Of a stretch of 64,000 nucleotides of DNA, positions 5,397-59,748 are shown piece by piece. Origin of the DNA: Argopecten irradians (Eukaryota > Mollusca > Bivalvia > Pectinida > Pectinidae); contig NC_091142.1 in the NCBI RefSeq assembly GCF_041381155.1, positions 6,947,778-7,011,777 on the forward strand, given 5' to 3'. Made by a program: the position numbers and the translations under genes. Under the pieces are notes generated by a model. The model saw nothing but the letters and a program-made list of their open reading frames with translations. It searched no databases and was not told the origin of the DNA. The first letter of the stretch is position 1. Each line of letters opens with the position of its first letter.

Positions 5397-6561
5397 TTTC
5401 ATTTTGTCTTGTCACATATACAAGAAAACACTAAATCGCACATTGCAAATCCTTCTCAGTTTCTATATACAATGTATCACTAATCATGTAATCACAAGTA
5501 AAAACGTTGTCTTGCAAGAGCAAGCTTAAATAGGCTATGTCCATCCTCGGAAGACATTTCAGAAATTAATAATATTCGTTATAGAAGGATGACTATGGAT
5601 GTTTTAGGTTTACCAGGTTTATATGTGATGAATGCATTTGTATGGTTGACTGCACTCATAAACACGTGAGTGAGAATGGGAATGCTTTACCTGGTCCTGG
5701 TTTGACACGTGATGAATAGAATGATATGGATGAATGCACATTGTTGCTATTTTCAGTATATGCTACCCACCTGGTTTATAAGTGATGAATCCTTTGTATA
5801 GTAGGGTTTTATTAACACAAAAGGAATTGTGTTTTAAGTGAGAGATAAGCCTCAAACTGTACTATATGAACGGGCCTCGTTGATCTACCCTCTCACAAAT
5901 ATAGTTTTCGGCTTATCTCCTTAACATATATTATGAGTCATTGTAGTACCAGGGTATTTTGTGTTCTTCAAGCAATTTGAACTGACATTATCTGACAAAT
6001 ACAATTTGACAATAAATCATTTGGTTTTATCTATGCATATTTTTAACGAAGAAAATGAACTTATATATCAGATCAAACAAACGCATTTTGAACTTCTTCT
6101 CCAGTTCTACCAGTGCATTTTAGCTGAAACTTGAATGAAATGATCCTGACAAAGTCCCAACAAAGGTCTATTATTTTTCGGGTTGATCCGAAATCCGTCA
6201 AGTTCTCAAGTTCTTCCTGTGTAATTTAGCTGAAACTTGCATGAAATTATCCTGACATTGTCCTGACCAAGTGTTGTTAAATCCAAGATGACCGCTACAG
6301 CCGCCTTCTGAAAAGACATTTTGAGCTTCTTCTCATGTTCTACCGGTGCGATTTGGCTGAAGCTTGCCTGCCTGAAATGATCCTGATATTATCTTGACAA
6401 AGCGTTGTTACATTGATACCAAATCGAAGATGGCTCAGTACCATGACAACATATATCTACATGTACTTAATTTCTTATATTACTATTGACAGGGAAGTTA
6501 CATGTAGATGACCGTTAAGGCCCTTGGGCCTCAACGTATGACATGTGGCAGTATCCAAACC
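5397..6561. other. Non-coding; ~118-bp degenerate triplicate near 6080-6380 and a third element terminus at 6496-6534
   Basis: The phrase TTTAGCTGAAACTTG and close variants recur about every 118 bp (near 6120, 6226 and 6350), each followed by GAAATGATCCTGAC. It closes with GATGACCGTTAAGGCCCTTG followed by GGCCTCAACG, the same terminus type as the elements at 1-1835 and 4589-5396. No gene is seen. Confidence 0.6.
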
Positions 6562-24073: not shown

Positions 24074-26750
24074 ATGATACAGAACATTGATGAAAAAGAA
24101 CACTCTATCACAACTATAGACCAAGGGCGAAGAGATTTAGCCGAGGTAAGTAAATATTGAATGTCTTACATTAACAATTACTTATCTAAACCGAAACGAG
24201 GTATAATATTTCAAATGTGAATGTAAAACGAGATTGATAATTTTGAAGACACGAAATAGTAATTAGATTATAATTTAATTATCATAAATTAAATGTTACT
24301 TTAACTTTTGAAGCAACGAAACAGTAATTAGATTATAATTTAATTATAATAATTAAATTTTACTTTTAATAACGCGTGTCGTCTTATGTTACCCGCCGTC
24401 GTTCTAATAACCGCGCGTTAGTTATTTCACTAGACAGAAAAACAGCAATATGAATCTTTATTGTTAGCATTGAATACACAGGGAATCAGGCAATTGTTTG
24501 ATTTTGTAAATTATCTTAGGCATCGCTATAACATTATATTTTCGTATGATTTTATTGGGCTGTTTTAGAAACTATTAATTTTTGTTTGGGAGTCGTAGTG
24601 GGCCTTTAAAGAGGCTCAATTTAAATATTTATTTCATGGTGTTCCGCATATAATGACAAAACAAAAACAAAACACAAAAAACCCACATTACTGGCTATTA
24701 AATTATTTAGCTTTTTCTTCTATGTTTTTACTTACAAACTGAATACAATGCCGATTATTGACATTGGTACCTTTGAGTTTATATCTTGTGCCTTATGTAC
24801 TCTTAATTTATTGTTGAATTTGTGTACTTTTATTTATTTTATTTTCTTTATACATGTATTTTTATTTATTTATTTTTTTAATTATTCTACTTATTATTAT
24901 ATTTTTCATTTTATTATCATTTGTTTGGTCAATGGTGGCGGTTTGTGACTTATTTTATGTACAAAATACCAATTTTCTTGTAGATGACTATGGCGTCAGT
25001 TTGTATGAAGCTGTTGAAATCGACATTCATTCTACCCTTCGTGGCTGGAAATTACCTCCGTCGTCCACAAGGATCCCAGTATTATGACTGTAGCATCTCC
25101 TCCCGAGTCCTGTTCCTAGTCCTCGTCAGTCTTGTGACGGTCTTCACGGCCAACAGTGGCATACACCGACACGGGCAGTATCGTCTTGGAACCGTCTTGA
25201 TTCTTCAGGCGATAATCATGACATGTACCATGACCGCTGTACTAAGATTGGTTTGTCTGGTGCATAAGAATGGCCTCGGATCCGTTGTAGCAAAAAGACG
25301 ACAAACGAGTACTCCAAAACTTCAGATCGTATTTATCTGGATTTTCGGTCTAACGTCAGGCTTATATTGCGCTTTGTTCATCAGCAAACAGATCGAGTGT
25401 TTTGTAATTGTACATGCTGGTGGATTTTTCTGGAATGTACTATTTTATTTCAATGTTGTATTGATCCTGGGCATATTTGCAGAAATGATTTTTGTGTCTT
25501 ATTTTTCACAATTTGAATTAAAGCAAACATCGTGTGTAAATTCCGTTATGTTTCTAATGCTTACCGGTAATATTATTGTTATGCTTTATATCTACTTTAT
25601 GAAAAGAACATTTTTGTATGCAATTTATTTCGACCCTGAAGATAATTTGCGATCGTGTATAGAAAACAACAGTACAGTGTCGATCCTCAAGCGGAAGTCA
25701 CATAAACTACTGAGTCCGACATCAGTAGAGTTTAGCCTTCTCACAATCACAATACTACTTGAAATCTGGTCGCCAACGCAGATGGACAATGCTTATAATA
25801 GATCACGTGACAGAGAAGCAGATCGTGATACTTGTAGATCACGTGACATGCATGTGGAAGATGGTGAGAGTGAATCAGATGACAGACAGGAAGGTGATAG
25901 TGATGGCGGATCACGTGACAGACACATGGTTAATGTTTGTGAAGGAACACATGGCAGAGAAATACAGAATAATGATAATTACGGATACTGTGAACGACAA
26001 ATGTCTATTAATTCTAGCCACCGTGATTCTGAGCTCATTCCACTTCTGCACAGCGTAGATGAACTGGAGCAGCCAATCATTTTGTCAAGACAAAGATGGA
26101 AAGTGTCACACATTGCAACATTAGCTGTAACCCTGACTGCGGGTCTCGGACTTATAATCTGCTACACTGCACAAGCTATGGATATTGGAAACTTGAAACA
26201 ACTTAAGTTCGCCACGGAAATTTACGAACTAACTACACTAGTTATTATGACATGTGTACAACTAGTTGGCTTCTTTTGTTTATCACACTATTGTGTCCCC
26301 AAGAAATCTGTCAAACCACTCAGGCCAAGAGATTATGTGTATCTGTTATCGGCATTTGGTCTGATCACTTTCCATTTTTACGAGACTTTAGGAGGTGATG
26401 CGTCTACAGATTCATCGTCTAGTATTTTGCTGTTTAAAAGCATCCTTAGCATACTCCAGGATTATTTACAAGTGGTTTTTCTACTGCAGGCCAACCGATG
26501 TCAAAAATCCCGACCAAGCGTGCCCTTACTAGAATCGATTCTGATCTGCACAATGGTAATGAACCTTGTTTATTGGTTTATCGAGTCATTTCTGATATCA
26601 GAATTTCCAATCACAAGAGATTTAAAACACTCCATTTTCGCCAAACATTTGTTGTACTTTATATACGATGTATTATTACCGGTTGCTGTTTTCTTCAGGT
26701 TCACATCGTTTTTAGAATATTATGCCACCTTTGACGAGTTTCGTTCCTGA
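24074..26750 (+). CDS. Otopetrin-like 12-TM putative proton channel (copy 1, intact)
   Basis: Two exons join in frame: 24074-24145 (starts MIQNIDEKEHS, donor GTAAGT) and 24984-26750 (acceptor TTGTAG), giving 612 residues. Counting from exon 2, hydrophobic segments lie near 41-60, 67-93, 113-134, 147-175, 187-206, 246-263, 373-398, 413-435, 450-469, 481-503, 514-538 and 555-578. That is twelve segments in two halves of six, split by a polar acidic linker (about 266-370). This layout, plus LEIWSPTQ at the end of the sixth segment, LQDYLQVVFLLQANR, NLVYWFIESF and a final LPVAVFFRFTSFLEYY, fits the otopetrin family, whose last helix typically reads like PLxIFYRFHS. Otopetrins are plasma-membrane proton channels used in acid sensing and biomineralisation. 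The assignment rests on topology and motif resemblance, without a search. The sequence is divergent, so function is inference. Confidence 0.78.
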
Positions 26751-36752: not shown

Positions 36753-38826
36753 ACGACCATGTTGTCATTTTGTATGAAGCTGTTGAAGTCGACATTCATT
36801 CTACCTTTCGTGGCTGGAAATTACCTCCGTCGCCCTCAAGGACCACAGTCTTATGACTGTAGCATCTCCTCTCGAGTTCTGTTCCTGGTCCTGGTCAGTC
36901 TTGTGACGGTCTTCACGGCCAAAAGTGGCATACACCGACATGAAGAAGTTCGTCTTGCGGCAGTCCTGGTTCTACAGTCTGTCATAATCGTCTGCACAAT
37001 GATAGCCGTACTAAGGCTTGGATGCGTGGTCCAGAAACAGGGTATTAGATCTGTTGTAGCAAGACGGCGACGAACGAGTACTCCAAAACTTCAAATCATA
37101 TTCATCTGGATTTTCGGGCTATCGTCAGGGTTATATTGCGCTCTGTTCATAAGCAAACAAATCGAGTGTTTAATATTGAAATATAACAGCGGATTGTTCT
37201 GGAATGTGTTATTTTATTTCAATATTGTACTGATTCTAGGTATTTTCGCAGAAATGATTTTCGTGTCCTATTTCTCCCCGTTTGAGCTTAAGGTAAACAC
37301 CGGCAGTAAATTTCGTTATGTTTTTATTGCTAACCGCCAACATTCTCGTAATGCTGTATATCTACTTCATGAAGAGAACATTTTTTTATATGAGGGATAT
37401 GGAACCGAGAGATGAAGTAATATCCTGTATATTTAACAACAGTACGCTAACAATCCTCATGCTGAAATCGCATCAACTTGTTGGTCCGACCTTTGTGGAA
37501 TACACTCTTCTATCAATAACGATATTCCTGGAAATTTGGTCTCCTACTCAAGTGGAACACTCTGACGACACATCACGTCAAATAGAGGTGGACGGCTTTT
37601 ATACTGGATCACATGACAGGCATGTGGAGGATCGTTTATCACTTGAGAGACAGATTGATGATGCTGATGGTGGATCACGTGACATACATGTGGAAGATGA
37701 TCGTTTATCACGTGTGAGACAGATTGATGATGCTGATGGTGGATCACGTGACATACATGTGGGAGATGATCGCTTATCACGTGAGAGACAGATTTATGAT
37801 GCTGATGGTGGATCACGTGAAACACATGTGGAAGATGATCGTTTATCATGTGACATACAGATTGATGATGCTGATGGTGGATCACGTGACATATATGTGG
37901 AAGATGCTCGTTTATCACGTGACATACATATTGATGCTGCTAATGGTAGATCACGTGACAGACGGATACATGATCAACACGAAACCGAGCAAACCCTTTC
38001 CGTGGATAATGTTTGTGAAAGAAATCATGGCAGACAAATACAGCATGATGATGATAACGGATTCAGTGAAAGAGGTAGACCAGTTAATTGTAATCACCAA
38101 GATTCAGAGCTAATTCCGCTTCTGCACAGCATAGATGGACTTGATCGATCCGTCAGTCGATCACGACGAAGGTGGAAAGTGTCACATATTGCAACATTAG
38201 CCATTAGCCTTACTGCGGGTCTTGGACTCATAATCTGCTACATTGCACAAGCTATGGATATTGGAAACTTGGAACAACTTCACTCCGTAACGGAACTTTA
38301 TGAACTAACTATAATAGTTATAATGGTGTCTGTTCAACTCGTTGGATTCTTTTGTCTATCACACCATTGTGTCCCCAAGAAATCTGTTAAACCACTCAGG
38401 CCAAGAGATTATGTGTATCTGTTATCGGCATTTGGTCTGATCACTTTCCATTTTTACGAAACTTTAGGTGGGGACACGTCTTCCGGTTCCTCGTCTGGTA
38501 TTTTGCTGTACAAAAGCATTATTAGTATACTCCAGGATTATTTACAAGTGGTGTTTTTACTGCAGGCCAACCGATGTCAGAAGTCCCGACCAAGTGTTCC
38601 TTTACTGGAATCAGTCCTCATCTGTACAATGATCATGAATGTAATTGCATGGTTCAATAACTCTTTTCTGATGTCGGAGTTTCCGAGCACAAGAGATTTA
38701 GAACACAGCGGTTTCCCCAAGCATGTGTTGCATTTTATATACGACGTTTTATTACCGGTAGCTGTTTTCTTTAGGTTTACCTCATTTTTGGAATATTATG
38801 CTACATTTGAGGAGTATAATTCTTAA
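36753..38826 (+). pseudogene. Otopetrin-like copy 2 (main exon), one-base frameshift
   Basis: The acceptor TTGTAG at 36747-36752 opens the exon in the same place as the intact paralogue. The first frame (ATG 36759) runs SFCMKLLKSTFILPF... through four transmembrane segments to FELK at about 37291. There the paralogue has AAG CAA ACA and this copy has AAG GTAA ACA, one extra base near 37292-37295. The homologous frame then resumes (TPAVNFVMFLL) and stays open to the stop at 38824-38826 over 500 codons, ending FFRFTSFLEYYATFEEYNS. The rest of the 12-TM plan is intact. The linker is longer than in copy 1 because of a 23-residue repeat (37636-37980). The damage is a single indel, so a sequencing error, a polymorphism or a recent pseudogene are all possible. 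Confidence 0.75.
37636..37980 (+). repeat. 69-bp in-frame coding repeat (five 23-residue units) in the otopetrin-like linker
   Basis: Units read LSLERQIDDADGGSRDIHVE, LSRVRQIDDADGGSRDIHVG, LSRERQIYDADGGSRETHVE, LSCDIQIDDADGGSRDIYVE and LSRDIHIDAANGRSRDRRIH, each followed by about three residues (DDR or DAR in most). The intact paralogue has about one degenerate unit here (DSDGGSRDRHMVN). The DNA unit carries TCACGTGA, a perfect E-box palindrome, once or twice. Repeat number may vary between alleles. Confidence 0.9.
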
Positions 38827-40272
38827 TATTAGATACGCTCCGATTATGGCCCGAAGTCATTATTTTATATTCTTCCAGGTGGTATAACACAATATGTTAA
38901 CAAAACAAAGGTCCATAACTGGTATTTAATGTAAATACAATTAAATTCACTTAATTCTACCAAAATTTTACTTCATTTCGACTAAAGTCGCGAATATATC
39001 CATGGATAAGATAGTAAAAGGATCTCGTTTCAATACAATTTCCCTCAACTTTCTGTAAATACTTAAAATGATGCCACAATCACATGAAGTGGAAGTTGTT
39101 GTACTCAACGGATGTGGTTTCATCATTGGAAACCGCCGCAATGGTACTTTAATTTGTGAGTGAGTTCACGAGTTTGACTTTAATAAATGGGTCACTTATT
39201 AATTGGGAGACACTGAAGTTTCCGAAACAATAGCTTCCTAATGATTCTAAAATATTTACAATGTATATTTTATATTAATATATATTCTATATAGGTATAT
39301 TCCGAATTTGAATATTACAGAGTTATCTGCACTTGCGGGTAGGTATTGATTGTGACGTCATGTGTTTGCGAGCGTAACGTCATACGTTTCGGAGAAAACG
39401 ACGTGAATTGCGCTCACAAAATAATGACGTAACAATCGATACCTACCTGCAAGGGAGCTTACTCTGTAATATGCAAAGACGGAATATTAATATTAATGTT
39501 ATTATTTCTTCATAATACGTATTGTTTCATTTTATTATTTCAATTTTCATTTGATTATCAATATCTTGTTTTTCATTTTCATAATTCATTTTCCTAAAAA
39601 GAAATGTAATAAAACTTGCATGCACAACCACCTGAAGATAATTTAATCTTTGATGGTACATTTCAGTAAAGTTAATTTGCTACAATACTACGAAGCAAAA
39701 AATATTACATAAAAGTATATTCCTACAATTGACATGTTTCGTTTTGGTATCGCGAAATTTCTGTATTGATATCTACATACGATGTAAGTAACTATGTAAT
39801 ATTCTAATGTGGAATAGTAGCTAGGGTCGCCATGAAATTGTAAATATTTTTTTAATTAATGTTTAATTTTTATATATACATGTGTATATCGTACCATATT
39901 AACATAATGTTATAGCCATGCCTTACTCACTTTATCTATCTATTTGAATATAATGTATGGTTTATTTTGTTTTTAATTTCATTTTATTCATGAATTATTT
40001 GAAATGAATCAACTGTTTTAAGAATGTATAGAACACTTTCATTGACTCGAGTATATTTTTGATGAGCATCGCTAAGTGTAGACTGATTTGATTCCTGACC
40101 TTTGAATACCATAAATTGGAATATTTTGGCGTCGGAAAAATTTGGCGTTTTTGTATCAAAAAGGATGATTAAATTTTGCGTTTCCCTATGTCATGTAAAG
40201 TTTTGGCGCATTACTTGATTTGATAAAAGAAAACAAATACAACCCTTTGAAATATTGATATTCAATAGAAGT
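38827..40272. other. Intergenic, AT-rich; one CRE-type MITE, no gene seen
   Basis: Only the MITE at 39298-39486 is recognised. Just before 40273 lies a copy of the sequence (CCCTTTGAAATATTGATATT) that follows the LTR-like element in copy B. Confidence 0.5.
39298..39486. mobile_element. CRE-rich palindromic MITE, copy 2
   Basis: It runs from TATTCCGAATTTGAATATTA to ATGCAAAGACGGAATA, with inner TGTGACGTCATGTGTTTGCG and inverted GTAACAATCGATACCTACCT. It is nearly identical to the copy at 17030-17216 and in the same orientation. Confidence 0.87.
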
Positions 40273-40354
40273 TAGTTATTAGATAAGGGAGATAACTCCT
40301 ATAGCTTTATTATCAATACATCCTATAAAGGTCATATCATTAATTTAGGTTATA

Positions 40355-40537
40355 GAACTTTCTAGAATATTATCATGTATAAACAAATATGTTTGTAAAA
40401 ATGTTGATTATAAGTAGAGATCTAGAATGATCTATTTCCAGAAAGTTCTGTGTGTTTATTTGTTTACTGTTTTAGTTAGATATTTCTAGAAGTAGAAGGT
40501 TCTCCAATATTCTTGAATTAGGGTTTAGCTATATATA
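40355..40537 (+). promoter_or_regulatory. Heat-shock-element cluster plus TATA box (copy A)
   Basis: Canonical alternating pentamers are present: GAActTTCtaGAA at 40355-40367, TTCcaGAAagTTC at 40436-40448, and TTCtaGAA with GAAggTTC at 40484-40502, plus TTCttGAA at 40510-40517. TATATATA follows at 40530-40537. Three-unit nGAAn arrays just upstream of a TATA box are the normal HSF1-responsive promoter plan. Confidence 0.75.
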
Positions 40538-40598
40538 CTCCAGCTGTCCAAGGCTAATCGGAACTGTAATGAGACCTGTAATGAGACATATCAAGAAT

Positions 40599-41086
40599 TA
40601 TTATACCTCACTTTCATTTAGAATGTTCTGATTGGATTAAACTTGATCACATGACATTGAATAAGTTAGATGTTTCCCCCGGAATTGGAAGGCGAGGGAA
40701 ATAACCCCAGGGAAATAACCCCCAAGGGAAATAACCCCAGGGAAATAACCCCCGAGGGAAATAACCCCAGGGAAATAATCCGTTTGGAAGCTCCGCACGT
40801 GACCGGAAGTTGACGTCATCTGCAACGTCAACCAACAATGGCAACGGTGTTGTTTATTTTTTTGTAGCCCAACGAATTTAACAACGTTGTTGTTGGGAAA
40901 TATCTTCATGGGTTCTTTTAATTTTGTTCGGTATAATAAAATAATTATGTCCCTATGTGTTGGGATACATCTAAAATTGTCTCCCTGAAAAGAGTTATTT
41001 TCTCTCGGCTTCGCCCTCGAGAAAATAACTCTTTCCAGGGAGACAATTCTAGATGTATCCCTCCACAGAGGGCCATAATTGTATAT
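40599..41086. other. ~488-bp insertion in LTR-like copy A with TF-site cluster and long hairpin
   Basis: It is absent from copy B, where CAAGAATT joins GTACAGTG directly. It contains (a) a GGGAAATAACCCC repeat of 14-15 bp at about 40696-40780, and (b) abutting CACGTGAC, CCGGAAGT and TGACGTCA at 40796-40818, leading to a short leader-like sequence and ATGGCAACGG. It also contains (c) an imperfect hairpin with arms of about 44 bp at 40962-41061 (GGGATACATCTAAAATTGTC against GACAATTCTAGATGTATCCC). No transposase or TIR is recognised at its ends. Confidence 0.7.
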
Positions 41087-41444
41087 TGTACAGTGCCATA
41101 TTAGATTTCTATTGGGAGAGCTATTGTGACTTTATCTGTGGATTGTTACAAACACTTTGTGTGGATTTATTTATATTGCCTGGAACTTTACAAATCATCT
41201 GTGGACATTCATTTTCCTTGTGGATTTGTGATTATTGTTGATTTGAAAACTGGAAGGATCAAGGTTTATACCAGAACATTCACATACATATACTTAACAC
41301 TTTAAAATCATCGTATTTACTCTTGTACCACCACCAATTACTTTAGATATTGTAAACCATCTCTGTATAATATTGTATATATAATTAAATTGTGTTTTGA
41401 ATTTAGCTGCTGGTTTCTCATTTCTGTTATTCGTTCTTGTAACA

Positions 41445-42179
41445 ATATTGATATTCGATAGAAGTGATTAATAGTCACACATCTCGTTATATACATTTGT
41501 ATACGGGTTTGCACAAAAGAAAGACTCGCGTAGGTAGCGTTATTTTTCCTGTTGCCAAATAAGCCAAAATAAGACCACATCCAAAATATCCCAATTCACG
41601 GTAGTATGGTCATCAGATATGGAAGAAAATTGATAACAATTGATAACATGTGATATGAACCCGGCAAATGTGCATGTAATTCTCGAACTAAGGAGTCATT
41701 TGCAATAAGATGAGCCCATTAAAAGCGGCTGTAAATTTTTCCATTATGTACTTTGTGAAAAAGATACGAACATTCTTTATGAATAAAGCATTCGTGGTTT
41801 TAAAGTTATATGTGCCGTAACTCGACAAAAACTTTGACATGCTATTTTTTCTTCATTAATCTATTGAAAACCACAAGGTTTGATGAGTTAAGCTGTGAAA
41901 GTCATTCCAATGACTTCAGATGCGTTTTAAATATTTGCTACAACATATACATTATATACTGTAAAGTTTGTTGTATTTTATGCGTTATGTATGTTAAGAT
42001 GGAAACATACCTGAAGATATCACTTTACAATTACTAATAACATTGTAAAAAGGTGTGAAATGAAAATTTAGACCACAATTTGGCTTCATGGTCTGACTGT
42101 ATGTACTCATTTCAATTCACTATAGATGTAAATGTCATGATTTTTGGCAGTACTGTATTGTTTCATTCGGTACAAAGAG
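41445..42179. other. Flank duplicated after copies A and B, then unrecognised sequence
   Basis: 41445-41801 matches 43139-43503 nearly base for base (both end GCATTCGTGGTTT). From 41802 to about 42179 I see no gene or known repeat. Confidence 0.6.
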
Positions 42180-42460
42180 GTTCAAATGTACATACTAAAG
42201 GGCTTATCTAATTCGTTTATACCGAGGTTAAATTGAACGTATTTAAATGTGTTTTTAATTCGTTATAACGAGGTTCAAATGTACAAACTAAATTGTTTGT
42301 TTCATTCGGTTCAAAGAGGTTAAAATGTAACTACTAAAGGGCTTATTTAATACGTTATAACGAGGCTTAAATAAACATAATAAAGGGCTTATTTCGTTAT
42401 AACGATGTTTTGAAGCTGGCCTACCTTTAGTCGGGTAATATCGATGTCACTAGAATGTAG
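42180..42460 (-). pseudogene. GH10 intron 10 satellite plus a 33-bp exon 10 splinter
   Basis: On the minus strand 42457-42425 reads CATTCTAGTGACATCGATAT then TACCCGACTAAAG|GTAGGC. This is the 3' end of GH10 exon 10 with its donor, matching 46258-46224. It is followed by the same ~46-bp satellite (TTCGTTATAACGA...CATACTAAAGGG) found in intron 10 of the inverted GH10 copy. The exon piece ends abruptly where LTR-like copy B begins. It is the remains of a third GH10 locus. Confidence 0.8.
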
Positions 42461-43138
42461 TTATTAGATAAGGGAGATAACTCCTATAGCTTTATTATCA
42501 ATACATCCTATAAAGGTCATATCATTAATTTAGGTTATAGAACTTTCTAGAATATTATCATGTATAAACAAATATGTTTGTAAAAATGTTGATTATAAGT
42601 AGAGATCTAGAATGATCTATTTCCAGAAAGTTCTGTGTGTTTATTTGTTTACTGTTTTAGTTAGATATTTCTAGAAGTAGAAGGTTCTCCAATATTCTTG
42701 AATTAGGGTTTAGCTATATATACTCCAGCTGTCCAAGGCTAATCAGAACTGTAATGAGACCTGTAATGAGACATATCAAGAATTGTACAGTGCCATATTA
42801 GATTCTATTGGGAGAGCTATTGTGACTTTATCTGTGGATTATTACAACACTTTGTGTGGATTTATTTATATTGCCTGGAACTTTACAAATCATCTGTAGA
42901 CATTCATTTTCCTTGTGGATTTGTGATGATTGTTGATTTGAAAACTGGAAGGATCAAGGTTTATACCAGAACATTCACATACATATATAATTAACACTTT
43001 AAATCATCGTATTACTCTTGTACCACCACCAATTACTTTAGATATTGTAAACCATCTCTGTATATTATTGTATATATAATTAAATTGTGTTTTGAATTTA
43101 GCTGCTGGTTTCTCATTTCTGTTATTCGTTCTTGCAAC
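42458..43138 (+). mobile_element. Solo-LTR-like element, copy B (uninterrupted, ~681 bp)
   Basis: Collinear with copy A but without the 488-bp insertion. It starts TAGTTATTAGATAAGGGAGA directly against the GH10 exon splinter and ends GTTATTCGTTCTTGCAAC. It is followed by CCCTTTGAAATATTGATATT, the same sequence that precedes copy A, which suggests tandem LTR-to-LTR recombination around a lost internal region. Confidence 0.65.
42540..42722 (+). promoter_or_regulatory. Heat-shock-element cluster plus TATA box (copy B)
   Basis: The same three HSEs are conserved base for base: GAACTTTCTAGAA at 42540-42552, TTCCAGAAAGTTC at 42621-42633, and the TTCTAGAA...GAAGGTTC pair at 42669-42687. TATATATA follows at 42715-42722. 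Confidence 0.75.
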
Positions 43139-43503
43139 CCTTTGAAATATTGATATTCAATAGAAGTGATTAATAGTCACACATCTCGTTATATACATAT
43201 GTATACGGGTTTGCACAAAAGAAAGACTCGCGCAGGTAGCGTTATTTTTCCGGTTGCCAAATAAGCCAAAATATGACCACATCCAAAATATCCCAATTCA
43301 CGGTAGTATGGTCATCAGATATGGAAGAAAATTGATAACAATTGATAACATGTGATATGAACCCGGCAAATGTGCATGTAATTCTCGAACTAAGGAGTCA
43401 TTTGCAATAAGATGAGCCCATTAAAAGCGGCTGTAAATTTTTCCATTATGTACTTTGTGAAAAAGATACGAACATTCTTTACGAATAAAGCATTCGTGGT
43501 TTA

Positions 43504-43906: not shown

Positions 43907-46317
43907 TCAACGAATTCGGAATATCACCTTCGGAGATGCATCTGTATAGAAAGAAATCAATATATATATATATATCAAAGTAAATAAACATTTAATTATG
44001 TTTCAATAGAATCGTATGCTTTTGTATTTCTGTATTCTTTACCTACTTGATATCATGATTGGAACAATTGGTTCAATGGGAATAACTGGATATTATGAGC
44101 GGTGTAACCCAAACAAATGACACTGATATATGTCCAATACGAAGTGTTTGCAATCTGTATCACAGGCGAATAAATTTTGTTTTAATAAAGATATTGAAAT
44201 ATTCTCTGATATTATATTATCCCCAAGACATGGTATCAGATATTATATGTCTGCAAATGCCTGTGATCTGTACAAGTATAATTTGATCAGTCGTCATTAT
44301 GATAATATAGCTGGCTTAAATTATACCATAACCAAAAGACTAGCTAGAATTTTACATGTTAAGCAGTTGCCTGGTACTCAATGAATTTAACATAATCAGC
44401 TCTACAATTAATATGTCCAAAGTTTTCTTTAGAGTTATTCCCCTTTGCAGAATTTTTTAACGATGCCGAGCATACAAGATGAAAATAAATTCAGGGAATT
44501 TACAATTTTTGTTACTATTTGATACCATTAGGTTTATACTTGGTGAAATACAACTTGGTGCATAACACTCTTTTTTGTAGAAATGCTTGTTGTTCATTTC
44601 CCAAAATTTTGCCTTGAAAATGTGTATATTAATTATATGTACATTCATTTATTAGTAAATACATTTGCTAATGTTCATGTGATTCGGCATGGTATAGAAC
44701 ATCACTTTTTTTAGTTCTGTAAACCAATTTTTTTTCGCGATTCAAGTAAATTCGCGAAAGGTTAACGCCGCTCATAAAGTCTACATCATTAATATTGGTA
44801 GAAAATCCCATTATTTGTTTTTAAATCTGCGAATGGTATCTTTGCGAACTTGTCTTGAAATGGAAATCGGAAAAGTTAAAAGCCACGAAAGAAAGTTAGT
44901 TAATATACAGTAGTATATTATTAGTACTTACTTGTTCCTTTTACTCTTATTATTATTTTACTTTTCGATGGCAGGTTGACTTTGACGGTTTTGAGTGTTA
45001 CTCCACTCTTCTTCACTTTAATGGAGTAGTCGCCCTTGAAATATCGTTCATTCCTGTAAGTTTTCAGCTTCCCAGACCAATTAGTCCTCCATCTGGTATT
45101 CACAAGATCTATATATTTCTGGCCGGCTGCGTTCAACTAAAAATAATAAATAAAAATTGGTTTAAGCTTATTCACTTTGTTGAATTAGGTTTTATTCAAA
45201 CAATTCACCATAAATGGATTTTTGTATTCGGTATTGCTCTTATCTGAGAATCGAAAACTTTGGCGAAACATGCATTTAAAGAATGAACCATTAAGGCTTC
45301 GTTTTGTGATAACATCCTATTGTTGGTAAATGCTTTATAGTTTTTCTTATCATTTATTTTACTATAATATTATAACTACACCGGTATGCCAATTTTGACA
45401 GAGTCATTATGCTTACTGTTATAGAATCCGTGCCTGTCGCCAAAGCGGCGTCTGGCCTCCATATGGCCTCGGACCAGAATCCCCACAGTAGCACGCCCTT
45501 CACCATGTTGTGGCTAAAGTAGAGAGTCATTACATCTTCGATCCCCTGGGCTTTTGTAGTGACGTCAGCTTCATTAAGAGTCATTTCTGTAATCCACAGA
45601 GGAAAACCGGCTTCCGCCATTTTGTTAAGACGATACTGGAATGGCAAGCACGTGGTTTATATATTTCACAATACAATCGCATATCCATTATAAATGTCAT
45701 AAAATATAAGGCTAGATCATTACGTTACAGACAAATGATTTCGGGGAGACAGGTTTCTGAAGGCGATCTACCAAGCGTTCATTGTTCAAATTTTCTCGAC
45801 TACTACGCAACAATGATAATGCTTCCAGTAATCTGTGTTATTAGGCCTCATATAAATATATCAAAAGACATAGTTGACATTCTTTGAATAAAACATTGTT
45901 TTCCAATTACTCATAACGAGGTGTAAATGTACTTACTAAATGGTTTGTTTAATAAATGTATATACTAAAGGGTTTATTTAATAAATGTATATACTAAAGG
46001 GTTTATTTAATTCGTAATAACGAGGCTTAAATGAACGTACTAAAGGGTTTGTTTAATTCGTTATAACGAGATTCAAATGTACATACGAAAGAGCTTATTT
46101 AATACGCTATAAAGAGGTTTAAATGTACATACTAAAGGTTTTATTGAATTCGTTATAACGAATTTAAAATGTACATACTAATGGGTTTATTTCGTTATAA
46201 CGATGTTTTTGAAGTTGGCCTACCTTTAGTCGGGTAATATCGATGTCACTGGAATGTAGGTGGCTCTGTACACCAACACCATGGAGTGGTACTCCGGCGG
46301 CAAGGTAATCTTTGGCT
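43907..46317 (-). pseudogene. 5'-truncated inverted GH10 copy (exons 10-13 only)
   Basis: Exons on the minus strand: partial exon 10 46317-46224 (KDYLAAGVPLHGVGVQSHLH), exon 11 45635-45417 (219 nt), exon 12 45136-44932 (205 nt), exon 13 43941-43907 (35 nt, ends NASPKVIFRIR and a stop). Lengths and phases of exons 11-13 equal those of the full gene. The nucleophile region WITEMTLNE and WGFWSEAIWRPDAAL are intact, and no stop lies within exons 11-13. Exon 10 lacks its first ~15 nt and its acceptor; an in-frame TGA sits at 46322-46320. The carbohydrate-binding module and the exon with the acid/base Glu (HWDVNNE) are not found in the next 17 kb. It cannot encode a working GH10 enzyme alone. The well-kept frame suggests recent truncation or use of an unseen upstream exon. 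Confidence 0.82.
45900..46215. repeat. ~46-bp minisatellite with TCGTTATAACGA palindrome, intron 10 of inverted GH10
   Basis: About seven units of TTCGTTATAACGAGGTTTAA then ATGTACATACTAAAGGGTTT and ATTTAA. The core TCGTTATAACGA is a perfect 12-bp palindrome. The full-length gene has a single related unit in the same intron (CTCGTTATAACGAATTTCAC at about 19392), the probable seed. A second array is at 42180-42424. Confidence 0.88.
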
Positions 46318-46818
46318 TTTCACAAGAATATACTCAGATTAATAACAATTACGGGAAAATCAAAGAAAAACTTTTATAAAAGGAGAGCAGTATATCAAAT
46401 ATATATTAACTTATCATCATTATGCAAAATGTCATAGTTTCCTGGAATTAGTTCACAGACATAAAGAAAAACTTTTATAAAAGGAGAGCAGTATATCAAA
46501 TATATATTAACTTATCATCATTATGCAAAATGTCATAGTTTCCTGGAATTAGTTCACAGACATATTAAGTACAAAGTGATTAGTGTTAACAGTTTTATAG
46601 TGTTATCAGGCAGAATCGTCCTGTTATCTGATCCCGACAGACAGAAAGATAATGCTGTTCAAATATTATTTTACGGTACATCTCCTGCTTTACGTTATAA
46701 CATGTGCCTTTATTTTCTCCTTGGCCTTGTTAAGAATAATAAAACGAATGCATAAATTATATAATGGGGATATCCATTTCAACCAATCAATGTAACACGA
46801 TATGATCAGAAACGCTCG
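46318..46818. other. Non-coding spacer with a 101-bp tandem duplication (46362-46563)
   Basis: AAAGAAAAACTTTTATAAAA begins at 46362 and again at 46463, and the two 101-bp copies are essentially identical. No GH10 exon 9 homologue is seen here. Confidence 0.8.
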
Positions 46819-47013
46819 TTCTGTATTAGGTCTGTACATATTACAGAGTAAGCTCCCATGCGGGTAGGTATCCATTGTGACGTCATTATTCTGTGGGAGC
46901 AATTCACGTCGTTTTCTCCGAAAAGTATGTCATTCGACTCGCAAAGACACGAAGTCACAATCAATACCTTTCCACAAGGGCAGATAACTCTGTAATATGA
47001 AAATACAGAATAT
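46819..47013. mobile_element. CRE-rich palindromic MITE, copy 3 (opposite orientation)
   Basis: TTCTGTATTAGGTCTGTACA...TATTACAGAGTAAGCTCCCA leads to GCGGGTAGGTATCCATTGTG and ACGTCATTATTC, and ends CTCTGTAATATGAAAATACA. It is the reverse complement of the copies at 17030 and 39298, and more diverged. Confidence 0.8.
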
Positions 47014-50886: not shown

Positions 50887-52400
50887 ATATCTCCGCCATT
50901 TTGAATCTTATGACCTTGAACTTGGTCATTTTATGTGTCTGAAAGCATGATCTTTCACATCCAATTCAAAACATTTCACCTTTGAATTTTCATGAATTAC
51001 CTAAAATTTACGTTAAAAAATGAACGAAACGCCATATTCGGAGGTCTATATTTCCGCCATTTTCAAATTCATGTCTTTGAAATTAAAAACCTGTACAGAC
51101 AATAGGCTAAAGCTTACATTTACAAAAAATCAACACTCTAAATGAGATGATAAAGGCCTTACGAGCTCACAAATAACGGACAAAAATAAGAAAAAGAAAC
51201 AAATTGCCATATTTGGAGAGCTATATTTCCGCCATTTTTCTATATAACCCCTTAGAAATAAATAACTTTTGAAGGACAAAAGTTCATACAACACAGGTAT
51301 GAAAAATCAACACTGTACATACAGGTTTAAAGGCGCTGAAACGTCTCGTGCAAGGACAAATAAAAACTAAAATTTCGATTTTCGATGTCCTATATCTCCG
51401 CCATTTTGAATCTTATGACCTTGAACTTGGTCATTTTATGTGTCTGAAAGCATGATCTTTCACATCCAATTCAAAACATTTCACCTTTGAATTTTCATGA
51501 ATTACCCTAAAATTTACGTTAAAAAATGAACGAAACGCCATATTCGGAGGTCTATATTTCCGCCATTTTCAAATTCATGTCTTTGAAATTAAAAACCTGT
51601 ACAGACAATAGGCTAAAGCTAACATTTACAAAAAATCAACACCCTACATGAGACGATAAAGGCCCTACGAGCTCACAAATAACGGACAAAAATAAGAAAA
51701 TGAAACAAATTGCCATATTTGGAGAGCTATATTTCCGCCATTTTTCTATATAACCCCTTAAAAATAAATAACTTTTGAAGACAAAAGTTCATACAACACA
51801 GGTATGAAAAATCAACACTGTACATACAGGTTTAAAGGCGCTGAAACGTCTCGTGCAAGGACAAATAAAAACTAAAATTTCGATTTTCGATGTCCTATAT
51901 CTCCGCCATTTTGAATCTTATGACCTTGAACTTGGTCATTTTATGTGTCTGAAAGCATGATCTTTCACATCCAATTCAAAACATTTCACCTTTGAATTTT
52001 CATGAATTACCCTAAAATTTACGTTAAAAAATGAACGAAACGCCATATTCGGAGGTCTATATTTCCGCCATTTTCAAATTCATGTCTTTGAAATTAAAAA
52101 CCTGTACAGACAATAGGCTAAAGCTTACATTTACAAAAAATCAACACTCTAAATGAGATGATAAAGGCCCTACGAGCTCACAAATAACGGAAAAAAATAA
52201 GAAAATGAAACAAATTGCCATATTTGGAGAGCTATATTTCCGCCATTTTTCTATATAACCCCTTAAAAAGAAATAACTTTTGAAGACAAAAGTTCATACA
52301 ACAGCGGTATGAAAAATCAACACCGTACATACAGGTATTAAGGCGCTGAAACGTCTCGGGCAGGGGCAAATATAAACTAAAATTTCGATTTTTGATGTCC
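50887..52400. repeat. 505-bp higher-order satellite, array 1 (3 copies)
   Basis: TCCTATATCTCCGCCATTTT recurs at 505-bp spacing (about 50887, 51391, 51896, then the distal block at about 52397). Within each 505 bp the block TAT(A/C)T(T/C)CCGCCATTTT occurs three times, about 161, 176 and 168 bp apart. The repeat is therefore a trimer of ~168-bp monomers, and members of the same phase are far more alike than neighbours. Confidence 0.92.
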
Positions 52401-53521
52401 TATATCTCCGCCATTTTGGATCATATGACCTTGAATTTGGTCATTTTATGTGCCTGAGAACATGCTCTTTCATATGCGCCCTTCGAAACATTTCTATGGT
52501 AAAGTTCATTTTTGACCTTTGTTTGACCTCATTTGACCCCCTAGTGAACTCGTGACCTTGACATAATTTCTGATAACATGTAATGAGAAAAAAAACGTGA
52601 ATTATCGTGATCTACATGGAGAATGAAACGCACATGTTGTGTAGCGTACGGTTATGAAATTATGAGCGTTTAAAGTTCGTTCGAAAAAAAGCAGTTTTTT
52701 ACGTCTGTGACCTTGACCTTGAACGTTATCCTCCAAAATCGAGAGTACATTTTAAGAACTCATGTACGTACATAACGTCTCCAAATTTCAGCGCTCTACA
52801 CCTCTTATTTATTACGAAGATGTCGTTTAAAGATTTAAAGCTTTTTGAACCCTGTGACCTTGAATGAATGTCAAGGTCAATAAAACAGCATAAGTTCTGT
52901 AGACATTCGTCCATGCTATGTCTATACAAAAAATCAAGCATGTGTGTTAAGTATTAAAGGCGCTGAAACCTTTAAAAATTTTTGGCGGGAAAACGCCAAA
53001 ATAGCCTTTTTTCAAAGGCCTATATCTCCGCCATTTTGGATCACATGACCTTAAAACTTGTCATTATATATTTCTGAGGGCATGCCCTTTCATATCCAAC
53101 TTTCAAAACTTTTCTGTGGTGAATTTCGTTTTTGACCTTTGTTTGACCCCGTAGCGAACTCTTGACCTTGACATAATCTCTGATAACATGGCATGGGAAA
53201 AGCACGCGCAATGTCAAGATCTATCTGAATAACAAAACGTGAACGATGTACACCGTACGGTAATGAAGTTATGAGCGCTTAAACTTCGTTCCAAAAAAAT
53301 TGTTTTTTACGTCTGTGACCTTGACCTTGAACATTTTTGTAAAAAATCGAACGTACATTTCAAGATCTTATGTACATTCATAACGTGTCCAAAGTTGAGC
53401 GTCGTACCTTATTTCGTTCCTGAGATATCCTGCGAACAAGATTTGTGGAAATAAGTAAATAAGAATAAAAAAGAAAATAAAAGAATAATAATAAATAAGA
53501 AAAAACAGAACAATAACAATA

Positions 53522-53550
53522 AGGGATTTCCATCCTCAATGGAAATCCCT
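53522..53550. other. Terminal hairpin of macro-unit 1
   Basis: Perfect 12-bp arms AGGGATTTCCAT / ATGGAAATCCCT with a 5-nt loop, followed by AACTAG. The arm sequence GGGATTTCCA also occurs just inside the start of the next unit (ACACGGGATTTCCACC). The same hairpin closes unit 2 at 59720-59748 and is missing at the end of unit 3. Confidence 0.85.
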
Positions 53551-56500
53551 AACTAGATTTGATCGCGATCAAAACACGGGATTTCCACCTATGTAATGAT
53601 ATAAGTAATGTTAGCGAACAGACGATTGCTTGAACGAACGGACGATCTCACTCAATATTAATCAGAAAGCGTTTCTTACGAAAGTAGTCTGGTTCAACCG
53701 AAAAACAGATTTAGGGGAATCCCCCTTTGGGCAGAAGATTTCATAGAGAGGTGAATATATAGGAGCCTGCTGATTGGATATATTCAGGGTACACCAGTTA
53801 ATGGTTTATGTGTGGGTCGGACAATACATGTAGATGTAAAATTTGTAAAGAATTTTGATAACTTCATTTAACCTGAATAGTAGCAAACGTTAACACGGTC
53901 CTCTATGGGAATTTATTTGGTTCTGTGATCTCAAAACGGCCGGATAGTTTCTCAAAATAGCACCGGTTGTGTTTGAACATCCGGTGTCACAGGTGACGGC
54001 TCTGCCACACACATAAAAGGTTTTTAAACCTGTCAGTTATTGTGTTTGTGCATTACTTTTATTGTTTGTTTGTTCAAATGTACGTCCTATTAACAGCTAG
54101 GGTCACGTAAGGACGGCCTCCCATGTATGCGGTGTAGTTACACATGTACGTGTATTTACGCAAACACGTGTACATTGTTCATATATACGTGTATATGTAG
54201 TGTGATAGAACGGGTTTCTATCATTGTTGCATTTATTTCTACAGTATGTATATTTGTTATTGCACTCTTCTAAGTCTTCACTTCAGTGATCTGTTTATGT
54301 ATATTTGACCCAAATTCAGGGGAACACCGTGAGAACAGGTCTTATCTAGGGTGTGTTTGCTGTTTAGCAGTCACATTCATCAACCTAGTTGTCCTCATGA
54401 TCACCCCGATGATGACCGCTGGCCGGAGTACACGTGTGGTACACTTGGGAGGTGTTTATCAGTCAGTTGAGTCTTGTCTGTTTTAAGCGGAAGTTATATT
54501 TAGTGTGTAGGTGGGTTGTTGTAGCAGCGGTTTCACCTAAATATGGTGCTCTGTCCGGACATCCGGACATTGACCAATCAGTGGTCACTTTGGGGTACTG
54601 GGTTGATGAGTTGTTATAAAAGGGGCTGCTTCTAAGGAAGCTTTGGTCTTGACTTAGGGAATAGGTAGGGAGCAGAGCTAGTTGGCTCCGTAGGGTGTTA
54701 GGCTTTGTTTAGGGAACGTGGTAATCACACAGGACTGAGCTAATTAGGCCTAAAGTTTGGCTATAGTTAATCTTGGATACATTGTAACTGCTTCGGCACT
54801 TATATCTCTTATTGTTATCTGTCTTAACGGGCACTATTGTGAATCTTCTATGTAATACTTAATCTACTTGTCTTTTATATAATAAATAGTTATTTGTACC
54901 TGTATTTACCTAGTTGAGTTATTGGATTAGTGTCAGTGCTTCCGCTACATCCTAGAGATCGAACCTGTTGAGATACAGGCCTGTAACCTGTGGAGGAAAC
55001 AGGATCCGTAGAGGATTTGTGACGACTGTGGACTCTGTTGTATACTAAAAATACTATACGATCACGATTTGGGACTTATACATATAACGGGAGATACAGT
55101 CGGATCGCCCCTCCTGGTCTCTTGTGGAAAACCCTCCCTATTACAGTAGCACTTAAAACATCCCGAAAAGTATTGAAAACTAGATGTAAAAATACATTCG
55201 AAACGGCCCTTGTGTACCGAAGATTGAGCCCAGGACAGAATTTTAACCCAGCCGCTGATTGGCTGGCTAATTATGAATTTCAAAATTAAAAATGTTTTCT
55301 GACAGGTAATTATTCCTTGATAACCATGATATGAATTTGGAAATTCAGATTGAGATTTAGGTTCAAAATATCAATTTTGATAATGAATAGGTAAAAACAT
55401 TAGAATTTCAGGTTTTTTAAAAGTGCAAAAATTCTCCTTATCTTATGAAGATCTTGGACCAATGCGGAATAACACGTACGATTAGAGTTTTAGTATTAGA
55501 TACCGATTATCTCCCTTTGGCCACATGCCACATCATGTAATCACAACTCAAAATCGCTGAAAGTTCTATACCTCCGCCATTTTGAATCATATGACATTGA
55601 AATTGGTCATTTTATGTGTCTGAAAGCATGATCTTTCACATCCAATTCAAAACATTTCACCTTTGAATTTTCATGAATTACCCTAAAATTTACGTTAAAA
55701 AATGAACGAAACGCCATATTCGGAGGTCTATATTTCCGCCATTTTCAAATTCATGTCTTTGAAATTAAAAACCTGTACAGACAATAGGCTAAAGCTTACA
55801 TTTACAAAAATTCAACACTCAACATGAGATGATAAAGGCCCTACGAGCTCACAAATAACGGAAAAAATAAGAAAATGAAACAAATTGCCATATTTGGAGA
55901 GCTATATTTCCGCCATTTTTCTATATAACCCCTTAAAAATAAATAACTTTTGAAGACAAAAGTTCATACAACACAGGTATGAAAAATCAACACTGTACAT
56001 ACAGGTTTAAAGGCGCTGAAACGTCTCGTGCAAGGACAAATAAAAACTAAAATTTCGATTTTCGATGTCCTATATCTCCGCCATTTTGAATCTTATGACC
56101 TTGAACTTGGTCATTTTATGTGTCTGAAAGCATGATCTTTCACATCCAATTCAAAACATTTCACCTTTGAATTTTCATGAATTACCCTAAAATTTACGTT
56201 AAAAAATGAACGAAACGCCATATTCGGAGGTCTATATTTCCGCCATTTTCAAATTCATGTCTTTGAAATTAAAAACCTGTACAGACAATAGGCTAAAGCT
56301 AACATTTACAAAAAATCAACACTCTAATGAGATGATAAAGGCCCTACGAGCTCACAAATAACGGACAAAAATAAGAAAATGAAACAAATTGCCATATTTG
56401 GAGAGCTATATTTCCGCCATTTTTCTATATAACCCCTTAAAAATAAATAACTTTTGAAGACAAAAGTTCATACAACACAGGTATGAAAAATCAACACTGT

Positions 56501-59500
56501 ACATACAGGTTTAAAGGCGCTGAAACGTCTCGTGCAAGGACAAATAAAAACTAAAATTTCGATTTTCGATGTCCTATATCTCCGCCATTTTGAATCTTAT
56601 GACCTTGAACTTGGTCATTTTATGTGTCTGAAAGCATGATCTTTCACATCCAATTCAAAACATTTCACCTTTGAATTTTCATGAATTACCCTAAAATTTA
56701 CGTTAAAAAATGAACGAAACGCCATATTCGGAGGTCTATATTTCCGCCATTTTCAAATTCATGTCTTTGAAATTAAAAACCTGTACAGACAATAGGCTAA
56801 AGCTTACATTTACAAAAAATCAACACTCTAAATGAGATGATAAAGGCCCTACGAGCTCACAAATAACGGACAAAAATAAGAAAATGAAACAAATTGCCAT
56901 ATTTGGAGAGCTATATTTCCGCCATTTTTCTATATAACCCCTTAAAAATAAATAACTTTTGAAGACAAAAGTTCATACAACACAGGTATGAAAAATCAAC
57001 ACTGTACATACAGGTTTAAAGGCGCTGAAACGTCTCGTGCAAGGACAAATAAAAACTAAAATTTCGATTTTCGATGTCCTATATCTCCGCCATTTTGAAT
57101 CTTATGACCTTGAACTTGGTCATTTTATGTGTCTGAAAGCATGATCTTTCACATCCAATTCAAAACATTTCACCTTTGAATTTTCATGAATTACCCTAAA
57201 ATTTACGTTAAAAAATGAACGAAACGCCATATTCGGAGGTCTATATTTCCGCCATTTTCAAATTCATGTCTTTGAAATTAAAAACCTGTACAGACAATAG
57301 GCTAAAGCTTACATTTACAAAAAATCAACACTCTAAATGAGATGATAAAGGCCCTACGAGCTCACAAATAACGGACAAAAATAAGAAAATGAAACAAATT
57401 GCCATATTTGGAGAGCTATATTTCCGCCATTTTTCTATATAACCCCTTAAAAATAAATAACTTTTGAAGACAAAAGTTCATACAACACAGGTATGAAAAA
57501 TCAACACTGTACATACAGGTTTAAAGGCGCTGAAACGTCTCGTGCAAGGACAAATAAAAACTAAAATTTCGATTTTCGATGTCCTATATCTCCGCCATTT
57601 TGAATCTTATGACCTTGAACTTGGTCATTTTATGTGTCTGAAAGCATGATCTTTCACATCCAATTCAAAACATTTCACCTTTGAATTTTCATGAATTACG
57701 CTAAAATTTACGTTAAAAAAATGAACGAAACGCCATATTCGGAGGTCTATATTTCCGCCATTTTCAAATTCATGTCTTTGAAATTAAAAACCTGTACAGA
57801 CAATAGGCTAAAGCTTACATTTACAAAAAATCAACACTCTAAATGAGATGATAAAGGCCCTACGAGCTCACAAATAACGGACAAAAATAAGAAAATGAAA
57901 CAAATTGCCATATTTGGAGAGCTATATTTCCGCCATTTTTCTATATAACCCCTTAAAAATAAATAACTTTTGAAGACAAAAGTTCATACAACACAGGTAT
58001 GAAAAATCAACACTGTACATACAGGTTTAAAGGCGCTGAAACGTCTCGTGCAAGGACAAATAAAAACTAAAATTTCGATTTTCGATGTCCTATATCTCCG
58101 CCATTTTGAATCTTATGACCTTGAACTTGGTCATTTTATGTGTCTGAAAGCATGATCTTTCACATCCAATTCAAAACATTTCACCTTTGAATTTTCATGA
58201 ATTACCCTAAAATTTACGTTAAAAAATGAACGAAACGCCATATTCGGAGGTCTATATTTCCGCCATTTTCAAATTCATGTCTTTGAAATTAAAAACCTGT
58301 ACAGACAATAGGCTAAAGCTTACATTTACAAAAAATCAACACTCTAAATGAGATGATAAAGGCCCTACGAGCTCACAAATAACGGACAAAAATAAGAAAA
58401 AGAAACAAATTGCCATATTTGGAGAGCTATATTTCCGCCATTTTTCTATATAATCCCTTTAAAAATAAATAACTTTTGAAGACAAAAGTTCATACAACAA
58501 GGTATGAAAAATCAACACGTACATACAGGTATTAAGGCGCTGAAACGTCTCGGGCAGGGGCAAATATAAACTAAAATTTCGATTTTTGATGTCCTATATC
58601 TCCGCCATTTTGGATCATATGACCTTGAATTTGGTCATTTTATGTGCCTGAGAACATGCTCTTTCATATGCGCCCTTCGAAACATTTCTATGGTAAAGTT
58701 CATTTTTGACCTTTGTTTTGACCTCATTTGACCCCCTAGTGAACTCGTGACCCTGACATAATTTCTGATAACATGTAATGAGAAAAAAACGTGACTTATC
58801 GTGATCTACATGGAGAATGAAACGTACATGTTGTGTAGCGTACGGTTATGAAATTATGAGCGTTTAAAGTTCGTTCGAAAAAAAGCAGTTTTTTACGTCT
58901 GTGACCTTGACCTTGAACGTTATCCTCCAAAATCGAGAGTACATTTTAAGAACTCATGTACGTACATAACGTCTCCAAATTTCAGCGCTCTACACCTCTT
59001 ATTTATAAAGAAGAAGTCGTTTAAAGATTTAAAGCTTTTTGAACCCTGTGACCTTGAATGAATGTCAAGGTCAATAAAACAGCATAAGTTCTGTAGACAT
59101 TCGTCCATGCTATGTCTATACAAAAAATCAAGCATGTGTGTTAAGTATTAAAGGCGCTGAAACCTTTAAAATTTTTGGCGGGAAAACGCCAAAATAGCCT
59201 TTTTTCAAAGGCCTATATCTCCGCCATTTTGGATCTCATGACCTTAAAACTTGTCATTATATATTTCTGAGGGCATGACCTTTCATATCCAACTTTCAAA
59301 TTTTTTCTGTGGTAAATTTCGTTTTTGACCTTTGTTTGACCCCGTAGCGAACTCTTGACCTTGACATAATCTCTGATAACATGGCATGGGAAAAGCACGC
59401 GCAATGTCAAGATCTATCTGAATAACAAAACGTGAACGATGTACACCGTACGGTAATGAAGTTATGAGCGCTTAAACTTCGTTCCAAAAAATTGTGTTTT

Positions 59501-59748
59501 TTTCGTCTATGACCTTGACCTTGAACATTTTTGTAAAAAATCGAACGTACATTTCAAGATCTTATGTACATTCATAACGTGTCCAAAGTTGAGCGTCGTA
59601 CCTTATTCCGTTCCTGAGATATCCTGCTAACAAGATTTGTGGAAATAAGAATAAAAAAGAAAAATAAAGAATAATAATAATAAGAAGAAAAACTAGATTT
59701 GAAACAGAACAATAACAATAGGGATTTCCATCCTAAATGGAAATCCCT
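53551..59748 (+). repeat. Macro-repeat unit 2 (6.2 kb, 6 higher-order repeats)
   Basis: AACTAGATTTGATCGCGATC (the TGATCGCGATCA palindrome) starts the unit. 53609-54949 looks like an LTR: TGTTAGCG...CGCTACA, TATAAAAG at 54615-54622, AATAAA at 54881-54886. A SINE fragment (ACGTCCTATTAACAGCTAGG) lies at about 54091. Then come a 600-bp bridge, six 505-bp repeats (about 55567-58594), the distal block and a hairpin. No gag/pol, Rep or helicase coding is seen. Short open frames recurring in each unit reflect recent copying. Confidence 0.88.
55567..58594. repeat. 505-bp higher-order satellite, array 2 (6 copies)
   Basis: Phase markers lie at about 55567, 56071, 56575, 57080, 57585 and 58091, with spacing 504-506. 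Copies differ by only a few bases. Each monomer has CCGCCATTTT; the first monomer adds TGACCTTGAACTTGGTCA. Confidence 0.94.

Follow-up and report, generated by a model that had tools for sequence, protein, structure and literature searches.

The question raised by two similar repeats in the genome of the bivalve Argopecten irradians is whether a mobile element can carry a promoter built for heat induction. The repeats lie in a stretch of 64,000 nucleotides (assembly GCF_041381155.1, contig NC_091142.1, forward-strand positions 6,947,778 to 7,011,777), which is referred to here in its entirety as the window and corresponds to C9:6947778-7011777 in the genome searched. This was the same assembly, of 845.8 Mb in 1508 contigs, 16 of which exceed 34 Mb while the next largest measures 1.07 Mb, suggesting 16 chromosomes. 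An initial annotation had described the repeats as LTR-like promoters with perfect heat-shock elements (HSEs). The description held: both are solo long terminal repeats (LTRs) derived from a genuine LTR retrotransposon, of which this genome also contains full-length copies at other places. Judging from its letters, we consider it fairly probable that this retrotransposon is driven by heat, through heat-shock factor (HSF) acting on an HSE array in the U3 (unique 3′) region of its LTR.

The repeated unit extends further than initially annotated. Each copy contains two perfect three-unit HSEs (triads), further two-unit HSEs (dyads) and the TATA box TATATATA, arranged as follows.

40273-41444, plus strand: copy 1, a solo LTR without about the first 24 nt of the LTR, split by another repeat
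40355-40367: HSE A of copy 1, GAAnnTTCnnGAA, with one-mismatch TTC units in register on either side (40350, 40360)
40436-40448: HSE B of copy 1, TTCnnGAAnnTTC, its third unit complete in the window's subfamily and broken in the other subfamily
40484-40502: HSE C of copy 1, TTCnnGAA-3nt-GAAnnTTC, four units with one spacing off register
40510-40517: HSE D of copy 1, the dyad TTCTTGAA, 12 bp 5′ of the TATA box
40530-40537, plus strand: TATA box of copy 1, TATATATA
42458-43139, plus strand: copy 2, a solo LTR with a 5′ truncation identical to that of copy 1 and no insert
42540-42552: HSE A of copy 2, GAAnnTTCnnGAA
42621-42633: HSE B of copy 2, TTCnnGAAnnTTC
42669-42687: HSE C of copy 2, TTCnnGAA-3nt-GAAnnTTC
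42695-42702: HSE D of copy 2, TTCTTGAA
42715-42722, plus strand: TATA box of copy 2, TATATATA

With the insert of copy 1 excluded, the copies differ at 7 of 676 aligned sites (~99% identity). The whole array spans approximately 180 bp, and the HSE C halves TTCnnGAA and GAAnnTTC start at 40484 and 40495 in copy 1 and at 42669 and 42680 in copy 2. All of the motifs initially claimed were located in both copies, and their placement 13-30 bp upstream of the TATA box was about right, the distances measured in copy 1 being 12 bp from the end of the last dyad (HSE D) and 27 bp from the end of HSE C. On the usual TATA spacing, the RNA of copy 1 is expected to start near 40560 and to run rightwards.

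That such a cluster would rarely arise by chance was borne out by dinucleotide shuffles. The 268-bp U3 contains seven dyads, compared to a mean of 0.16 in the shuffles, none of which (0/5000) reached seven. Two triads are present per U3 against 0.003-0.004 in the shuffles, with at least two occurring in 1/5000 for copy 1 and 0/5000 for copy 2. Random sequences with a first-order composition matched to the window yield, per 64 kb, 0.4 and 0.3 occurrences of the two types of three-unit HSE.

The parent retrotransposon and its copies

A search of the genome with the U3 region gave 1350 first-look candidates, of which 40 were scored and found to be 96-100% identical. Several of these form same-strand LTR pairs, and five pairs (L009 to L013) were taken whole, four of them spaced 5.6-5.8 kb and one 4.0 kb. 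Full-length elements between two such LTRs, for which the initial annotation had proposed to search, were thereby found. Identities between the two LTRs of a pair were 98.3, 98.3, 99.0, 99.3 and 99.7%, and the five paired copies are therefore young. The LTR is about 700 bp long, starts with TGTTATGTATGACACTAAATAC (TGTTATG) and ends with GTAACA or ATAACA. The 5′ LTRs are followed by the primer site TTGGGGGCTCGT(GT)CCG, which we take to be of the tRNA-Pro type, and the 3′ LTRs are preceded by the polypurine tract AAGGAGGGGTG. Target duplications of 4 bp were legible by eye in three of the five pairs (CATG in L009, ATAC in L012 and ACAT in L013) and illegible in the other two, where the 3′ end is altered (L010) or the sides differ (L011).

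The coding order is SCAN-type gag, integrase (H2C2, rve), reverse transcriptase (RT) and RNase H, ending in L011 shortly before the polypurine tract. In that copy the integrase frame (3445-5046) is followed by the RT frame (4980-5678), and the order in L009 is alike. The gag capsid passed the cut-off in L012 (E 8.9e-12) and L009 (E 3.1e-7) and failed it in L011 (E 4e-4). RT, RNase H and DDE integrase domains, by which Ty3/gypsy elements are recognized, were all detected. With the RT protein as query, a genome search yielded 3825 candidates. Identity was 94-100% among the 114 that were scored, and many of these have long open frames. Among viral contigs, six pattern matches to the RT were found and none was confirmed as a relative. 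An integrase 5′ of RT is a mark of the Gmr1 clade (PMC6238403, PMC8220671), and Gmr1-like gag has been linked with the SCAN domain (PMC4592553, PMC4131045). The window LTRs thus belong to a young, multi-copy Ty3/gypsy retrotransposon of Gmr1 arrangement, this arrangement being read from domain order and gag.

The pattern of HSE A followed after 60-75 nt by HSE B reads identically on both strands; it occurred at 407 places genome-wide and its reversed control at one. Read by eye, 41 of the 50 places listed were LTRs of the retrotransposon and 9 were other TTCATGAA-rich repeats; such repeats with paired HSEs are themselves dispersed (e.g., C1:27216889 and C2:3838208). A 31-nt tag from the U5 region was found, with up to 3 mismatches, at 589+532 places (control 0), and a perfect HSE pair was seen by eye near 16 of the 24 exact tags listed on C1 and not near the other 8.

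The state of the HSEs was read in 91 LTRs spanning nearly the whole LTR, together with copy 2 of the window, shorter ones being dropped. Across the 91, HSE A was perfect in 83, HSE C in 76 and HSE D with the TATA box in 84, so that other genomic copies with HSEs kept, as sought by the initial annotation, are present. In the set gathered by LTR similarity, whose query held the HSEs, HSEs A, B and C were perfect in 25/25, 25/25 and 24/25 copies, respectively. The corresponding values were 33/36, 3/36 and 28/36 in the RT-protein set (40 of the 114 matches taken, 38 with an LTR, L030 and L066 being without, and 36 spanning enough) and 13/15, 1/15 and 14/15 in the primer-site set (20 of 138 exact places, on C1-C5 and away from known tags and RT matches; 16 in the family and 15 spanning). 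A last set of 19, made up of three places from the HSE list taken for their divergence and 16 U5 tags without, or not listed with, a perfect pair, gave 12/15, 5/15 and 10/15 among the 15 spanning copies.

The last base of HSE B (40448 and 42633) distinguishes two LTR subfamilies, with C making and A breaking the third unit. In the tree of full LTRs, one clade of 36 has C at this position in 35 (support 0.963), and A was found in 53 of the 56 outside it.

The identical primer site also supplied controls. Sixteen of the 20 stretches 5′ of it were the HSE-bearing LTR, and four did not match (L070, L071, L080 and L082). These represent three sequence types, L070 and L071 ending alike, and are taken as candidate other LTR families; they contain no three-unit HSE, and 1, 1, 0 and 1 dyads per 1200 bp.

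CpG is scarce throughout the element. The U3 contained no CpG in 50 of 92 LTRs, one in 39 and two in 3, with a mean of 0.49 against 5.2 expected. The R-U5 portion had 4.5 against 11.6 expected, and the internal regions of five copies had observed/expected ratios of 0.39-0.43. Counts for the three other types were 13/14.6, 10/19.9 and 25/26.8 (observed/expected), and the ratio for the window was 0.92. The whole element is CpG-poor, and at its overall rate about 2 would be expected in U3, so chance could by itself explain the U3 value.

Proposed heat-driven transcription and its alternatives

Host heat-shock promoters were compared by locating hsp70 genes with the Pfam model, which gave 75 genome matches including five full-length open frames; the promoters of two of the five were used. 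These two genes stand head-to-head (C2:60901257-60903068, minus strand, and 60905170-60906981, plus strand), and their near-identical promoters contain four dyads in approximately 100 bp and no perfect triad. The last dyad lies 23 bp from TATATAA (start to start) in the hsp70 pair and 20 bp in the LTR. The LTR U3 is laid out like this promoter pair, with more complete sites. Local alignments of the LTR with both hsp70 promoters at E below 0.05 extended over no more than 15-17 nt (E 0.003 and 0.031), and these matches lay in words resembling HSEs.

If the element is heat-driven, HSF trimers would bind the three-unit HSEs A and B under heat or other proteotoxic stress, with dyads C and D assisting, and TATA-directed transcription would start about 30 bp 3′ of the TATA box. 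In full-length copies the RNA would continue across R-U5 into and through the coding region, and the element would be transcribed, and could transpose, during heat episodes. The window copies could drive only short non-coding or read-through RNA, because no element coding region was seen after either of them.

Several observations weigh against heat as the driver. No perfect four-unit HSE occurs anywhere in the window. In 33/36 copies of the RT set HSE B has an incomplete third unit, and in 8/36 HSE C is broken; the likeness to hsp70 was drawn from one near-identical promoter pair. Additionally, HSE core sites showed no extra conservation relative to other U3 sites in the combined sample. Changes at core and other U3 sites, placed on trees made without U3 or with the full LTR, gave P values of 0.62 and 0.34 for internal and 0.13 and 0.24 for terminal branches, and in the RT sample core diversity was 0.024 compared to 0.023 for other U3 sites (P 0.57). 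The core diversity of 0 in the 25 LTR-query copies (P 0.003) is suspect, as the query contained the HSEs. Of the outcomes that the initial annotation named as refuting its reading, two did not occur, as many further copies were found and HSEs are present in most of those sampled. The presence of HSEs in young relatives is no demonstration of selection, the core sites varying like the rest of U3; either the copies have had too little time for a difference to show, or the HSEs are under no extra constraint.

The equal variation of HSE cores and other U3 sites agrees with an array that is real and yet unused for heat, kept since the copies are young, with other factors or constitutive activity driving the element. 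The prevalence of the subfamily with a broken HSE B unit (33/36 RT-sampled and 14/15 primer-site-sampled copies) is also in its favor. We nevertheless regard this as unlikely, if worth serious attention, because seven dyads and two triads beside a TATA box are far above chance, the layout equals that of the host hsp70 pair, and the four other primer-site stretches are without the array.

An appreciably less probable alternative is that the HSEs serve HSF outside heat shock, e.g., during early development or in the germ line, so that the element would be expressed where new copies are inherited. The motif evidence is also compatible with this, and HSF is required for Drosophila oogenesis and early larval development (PMC10745035). 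The layout, on the other hand, resembles that of the hsp70 pair, whose own heat inducibility is presumed.

Capture of a host hsp promoter by the LTR, an alternative offered by the initial annotation, found no support in the hsp70 promoter pair compared and is very improbable. In its favor are the common layout and short words, such as AGAACnTTCTAGA, that occur on both sides, but the matches to the hsp70 pair stop at 15-17 nt; for this single pair, the likeness would reflect convergence rather than capture. Finally, that the HSEs cluster by chance in AT-rich DNA, or that the assembly duplicated the locus, is hardly credible in the face of the shuffles, the hundreds of dispersed places and the differing upstream flanks of the two copies, even though A+T makes up 66% of the window and perfect HSEs also occur, through repetition, in an unrelated repeat within it.

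Should heat drive the element, a clustered HSE promoter resembling that of hsp70 would be present in an animal LTR retrotransposon whose lineage differs from those of the plant cases. Whether warming mobilizes transposons would then be directly testable in an animal with young, numerous copies, and the two natural subfamilies, one HSE unit apart, provide a built-in dose comparison. A wider proposal, which we put forward tentatively, is an animal ONSEN, in which hundreds of dispersed, nearly CpG-free LTRs together serve a marine mollusc as heat-shock promoters throughout its genome, with heat waves mobilizing a Gmr1-type element and putting neighboring genes under HSF control.

Surroundings of the two copies in the window

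The immediate context of the two LTRs comprises an insertion and three flanks.

40597-41085 (approximate boundaries): insertion of ~490 bp in copy 1, itself a dispersed repeat distinct from the LTR and containing a 62-nt hairpin
41445-41800: downstream flank of copy 1, homologous to a stretch 3′ of copy 2
43140-43502: flank 3′ of copy 2, homologous to 41445-41800
42184-42460: flank 5′ of copy 2, with 83% identity to 45983-46259, which is read as a GH10-like intron with a putative exon

The two copies share approximately 360 bp of downstream flank and have unlike upstream flanks. Since no primer site was listed nearby, both copies are truncated at the 5′ end and this downstream flank is shared, they look like a local duplication: they are solo LTRs, probably duplicated in place. 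The exact primer site was not found near the window on C9 among the places listed, and the idea that the copies are the two ends of one element was rejected on the same three grounds, the shared truncation amounting to ~24 nt. At L014:866-2573, two LTRs of the same family lie about 1 kb apart with a common downstream flank, as in the window, and local duplication of solo LTRs may therefore recur elsewhere.

The insert of copy 1 was also considered as an intron removed from copy 2 and rejected, as it has no GT-AG ends and is a dispersed repeat in its own right; among the 40 of its 630 genome candidates that were scored, the full-length matches listed were 83-100% identical. A stretch of ~33 bp that includes the last LTR bases occurs before copy 1 (40240-40272), after copy 2 (43135-43167) and partly after copy 1 (41445-41466). 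Its interpretation as a target duplication around copy 1 was dropped once the true LTR ends were established.

Two GH10-like genes lie in opposite orientation at 19255-20989 and 44924-46319, the second identified by a Pfam match and the first by DNA similarity. The Pfam GH10 match comes from an exon at 45357-45656 (minus strand) beside the 45983-46259 region. A broken GH10 fragment (42408-42460) directly adjoins copy 2 and looks like what is left of an exon from a duplicated GH10 gene. Tandem otopetrin-like genes were found at 24984-26750 and 36759-38826, the second consisting of two overlapping frames, with a Pfam match in the later one only, and a 69-bp tandem repeat.

An element of ~190 bp with inverted ends, resembling a miniature inverted-repeat transposable element, occurs at 39297-39486, 46824-47013 and 17025-17214, two of these flanking the LTR region in opposite orientation. 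At 50984-62389 lies an unrelated repeat with a period of ~505 bp, in which perfect GAAnnTTCnnGAA occurs at 11 places and GAATTTTCATGAA in the units read. Genome-wide, the 18-mer around its HSE was found at 79+56 places, and among those listed many lie about 505 bp apart. This repeat is reminiscent of human satellite III, which is an HSF1 target. No RNA families at gathering score and no tRNA genes were found in the 64-kb window.

Comparison with known heat-responsive elements

DIRS-1 of Dictyostelium is a retroelement with a terminal repeat said to hold heat-shock promoters, and it is of the tyrosine-recombinase type rather than an LTR element with a DDE integrase. Among LTR elements, heat responsiveness is already known in plants and, more weakly, in Drosophila copia (PMC3907296, PMC5059998, PMC10745035). 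For ONSEN (ATCOPIA78), heat induction and HSFA2 binding are proven, with a four-unit heat-responsive element (PMC3907296, PMC5059998). The element described here resembles ONSEN and the heat-responsive COPIA elements of Brassicaceae in being an LTR retrotransposon with adjacent nGAAn units in its LTR (PMC3907296, PMC5059998). The rule drawn for heat-responsive COPIA LTRs is at least three adjacent nGAAn units (PMC5059998), and these are present; four adjacent units (4P, the strongest type) are not, HSE C having four units with one spacing wrong. The ONSEN promoter lacks CG (PMC3907296), and none of the 92 LTRs here has more than two CpG in its U3. Unlike ONSEN, a Ty1/copia element of plants, the present element is a Ty3/gypsy element of an animal, carries two three-unit HSEs plus dyads and is known from its sequence.

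Drosophila copia is likewise an animal LTR retrotransposon, whose promoter contains a heat-shock consensus and whose RNA increases on heating (PMC3907296, PMC10745035); it belongs to Ty1/copia, whereas the Ty3/gypsy element described here has 7 dyads and 2 triads in 268 bp. The HSE-carrying Helitrons of Caenorhabditis are also mobile elements that spread HSE clusters through an animal genome (PMC6927752). They differ in being DNA transposons for which HSF-1 binding is shown (PMC6927752), while here an LTR element has the HSEs inside its own promoter.

With Gmr1-like Ty3/gypsy elements the present one shares an integrase 5′ of RT and a SCAN-like gag capsid, and the available parts of the papers describing them do not mention an HSE-bearing LTR (PMC6238403, PMC8220671, PMC4131045, PMC4592553). 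Two further papers, in the portions available, hold nothing on an HSE-bearing Gmr1-type element (PMC8905726, PMC6688261), and no published HSE-bearing LTR element in a mollusc was found in the literature searched, most subscription papers being outside its scope. Altogether, the lineage, the host and the strength of the HSE array look new within that literature, and the element would best be read as the counterpart, in an animal, of ONSEN in plants, having arisen by convergence.

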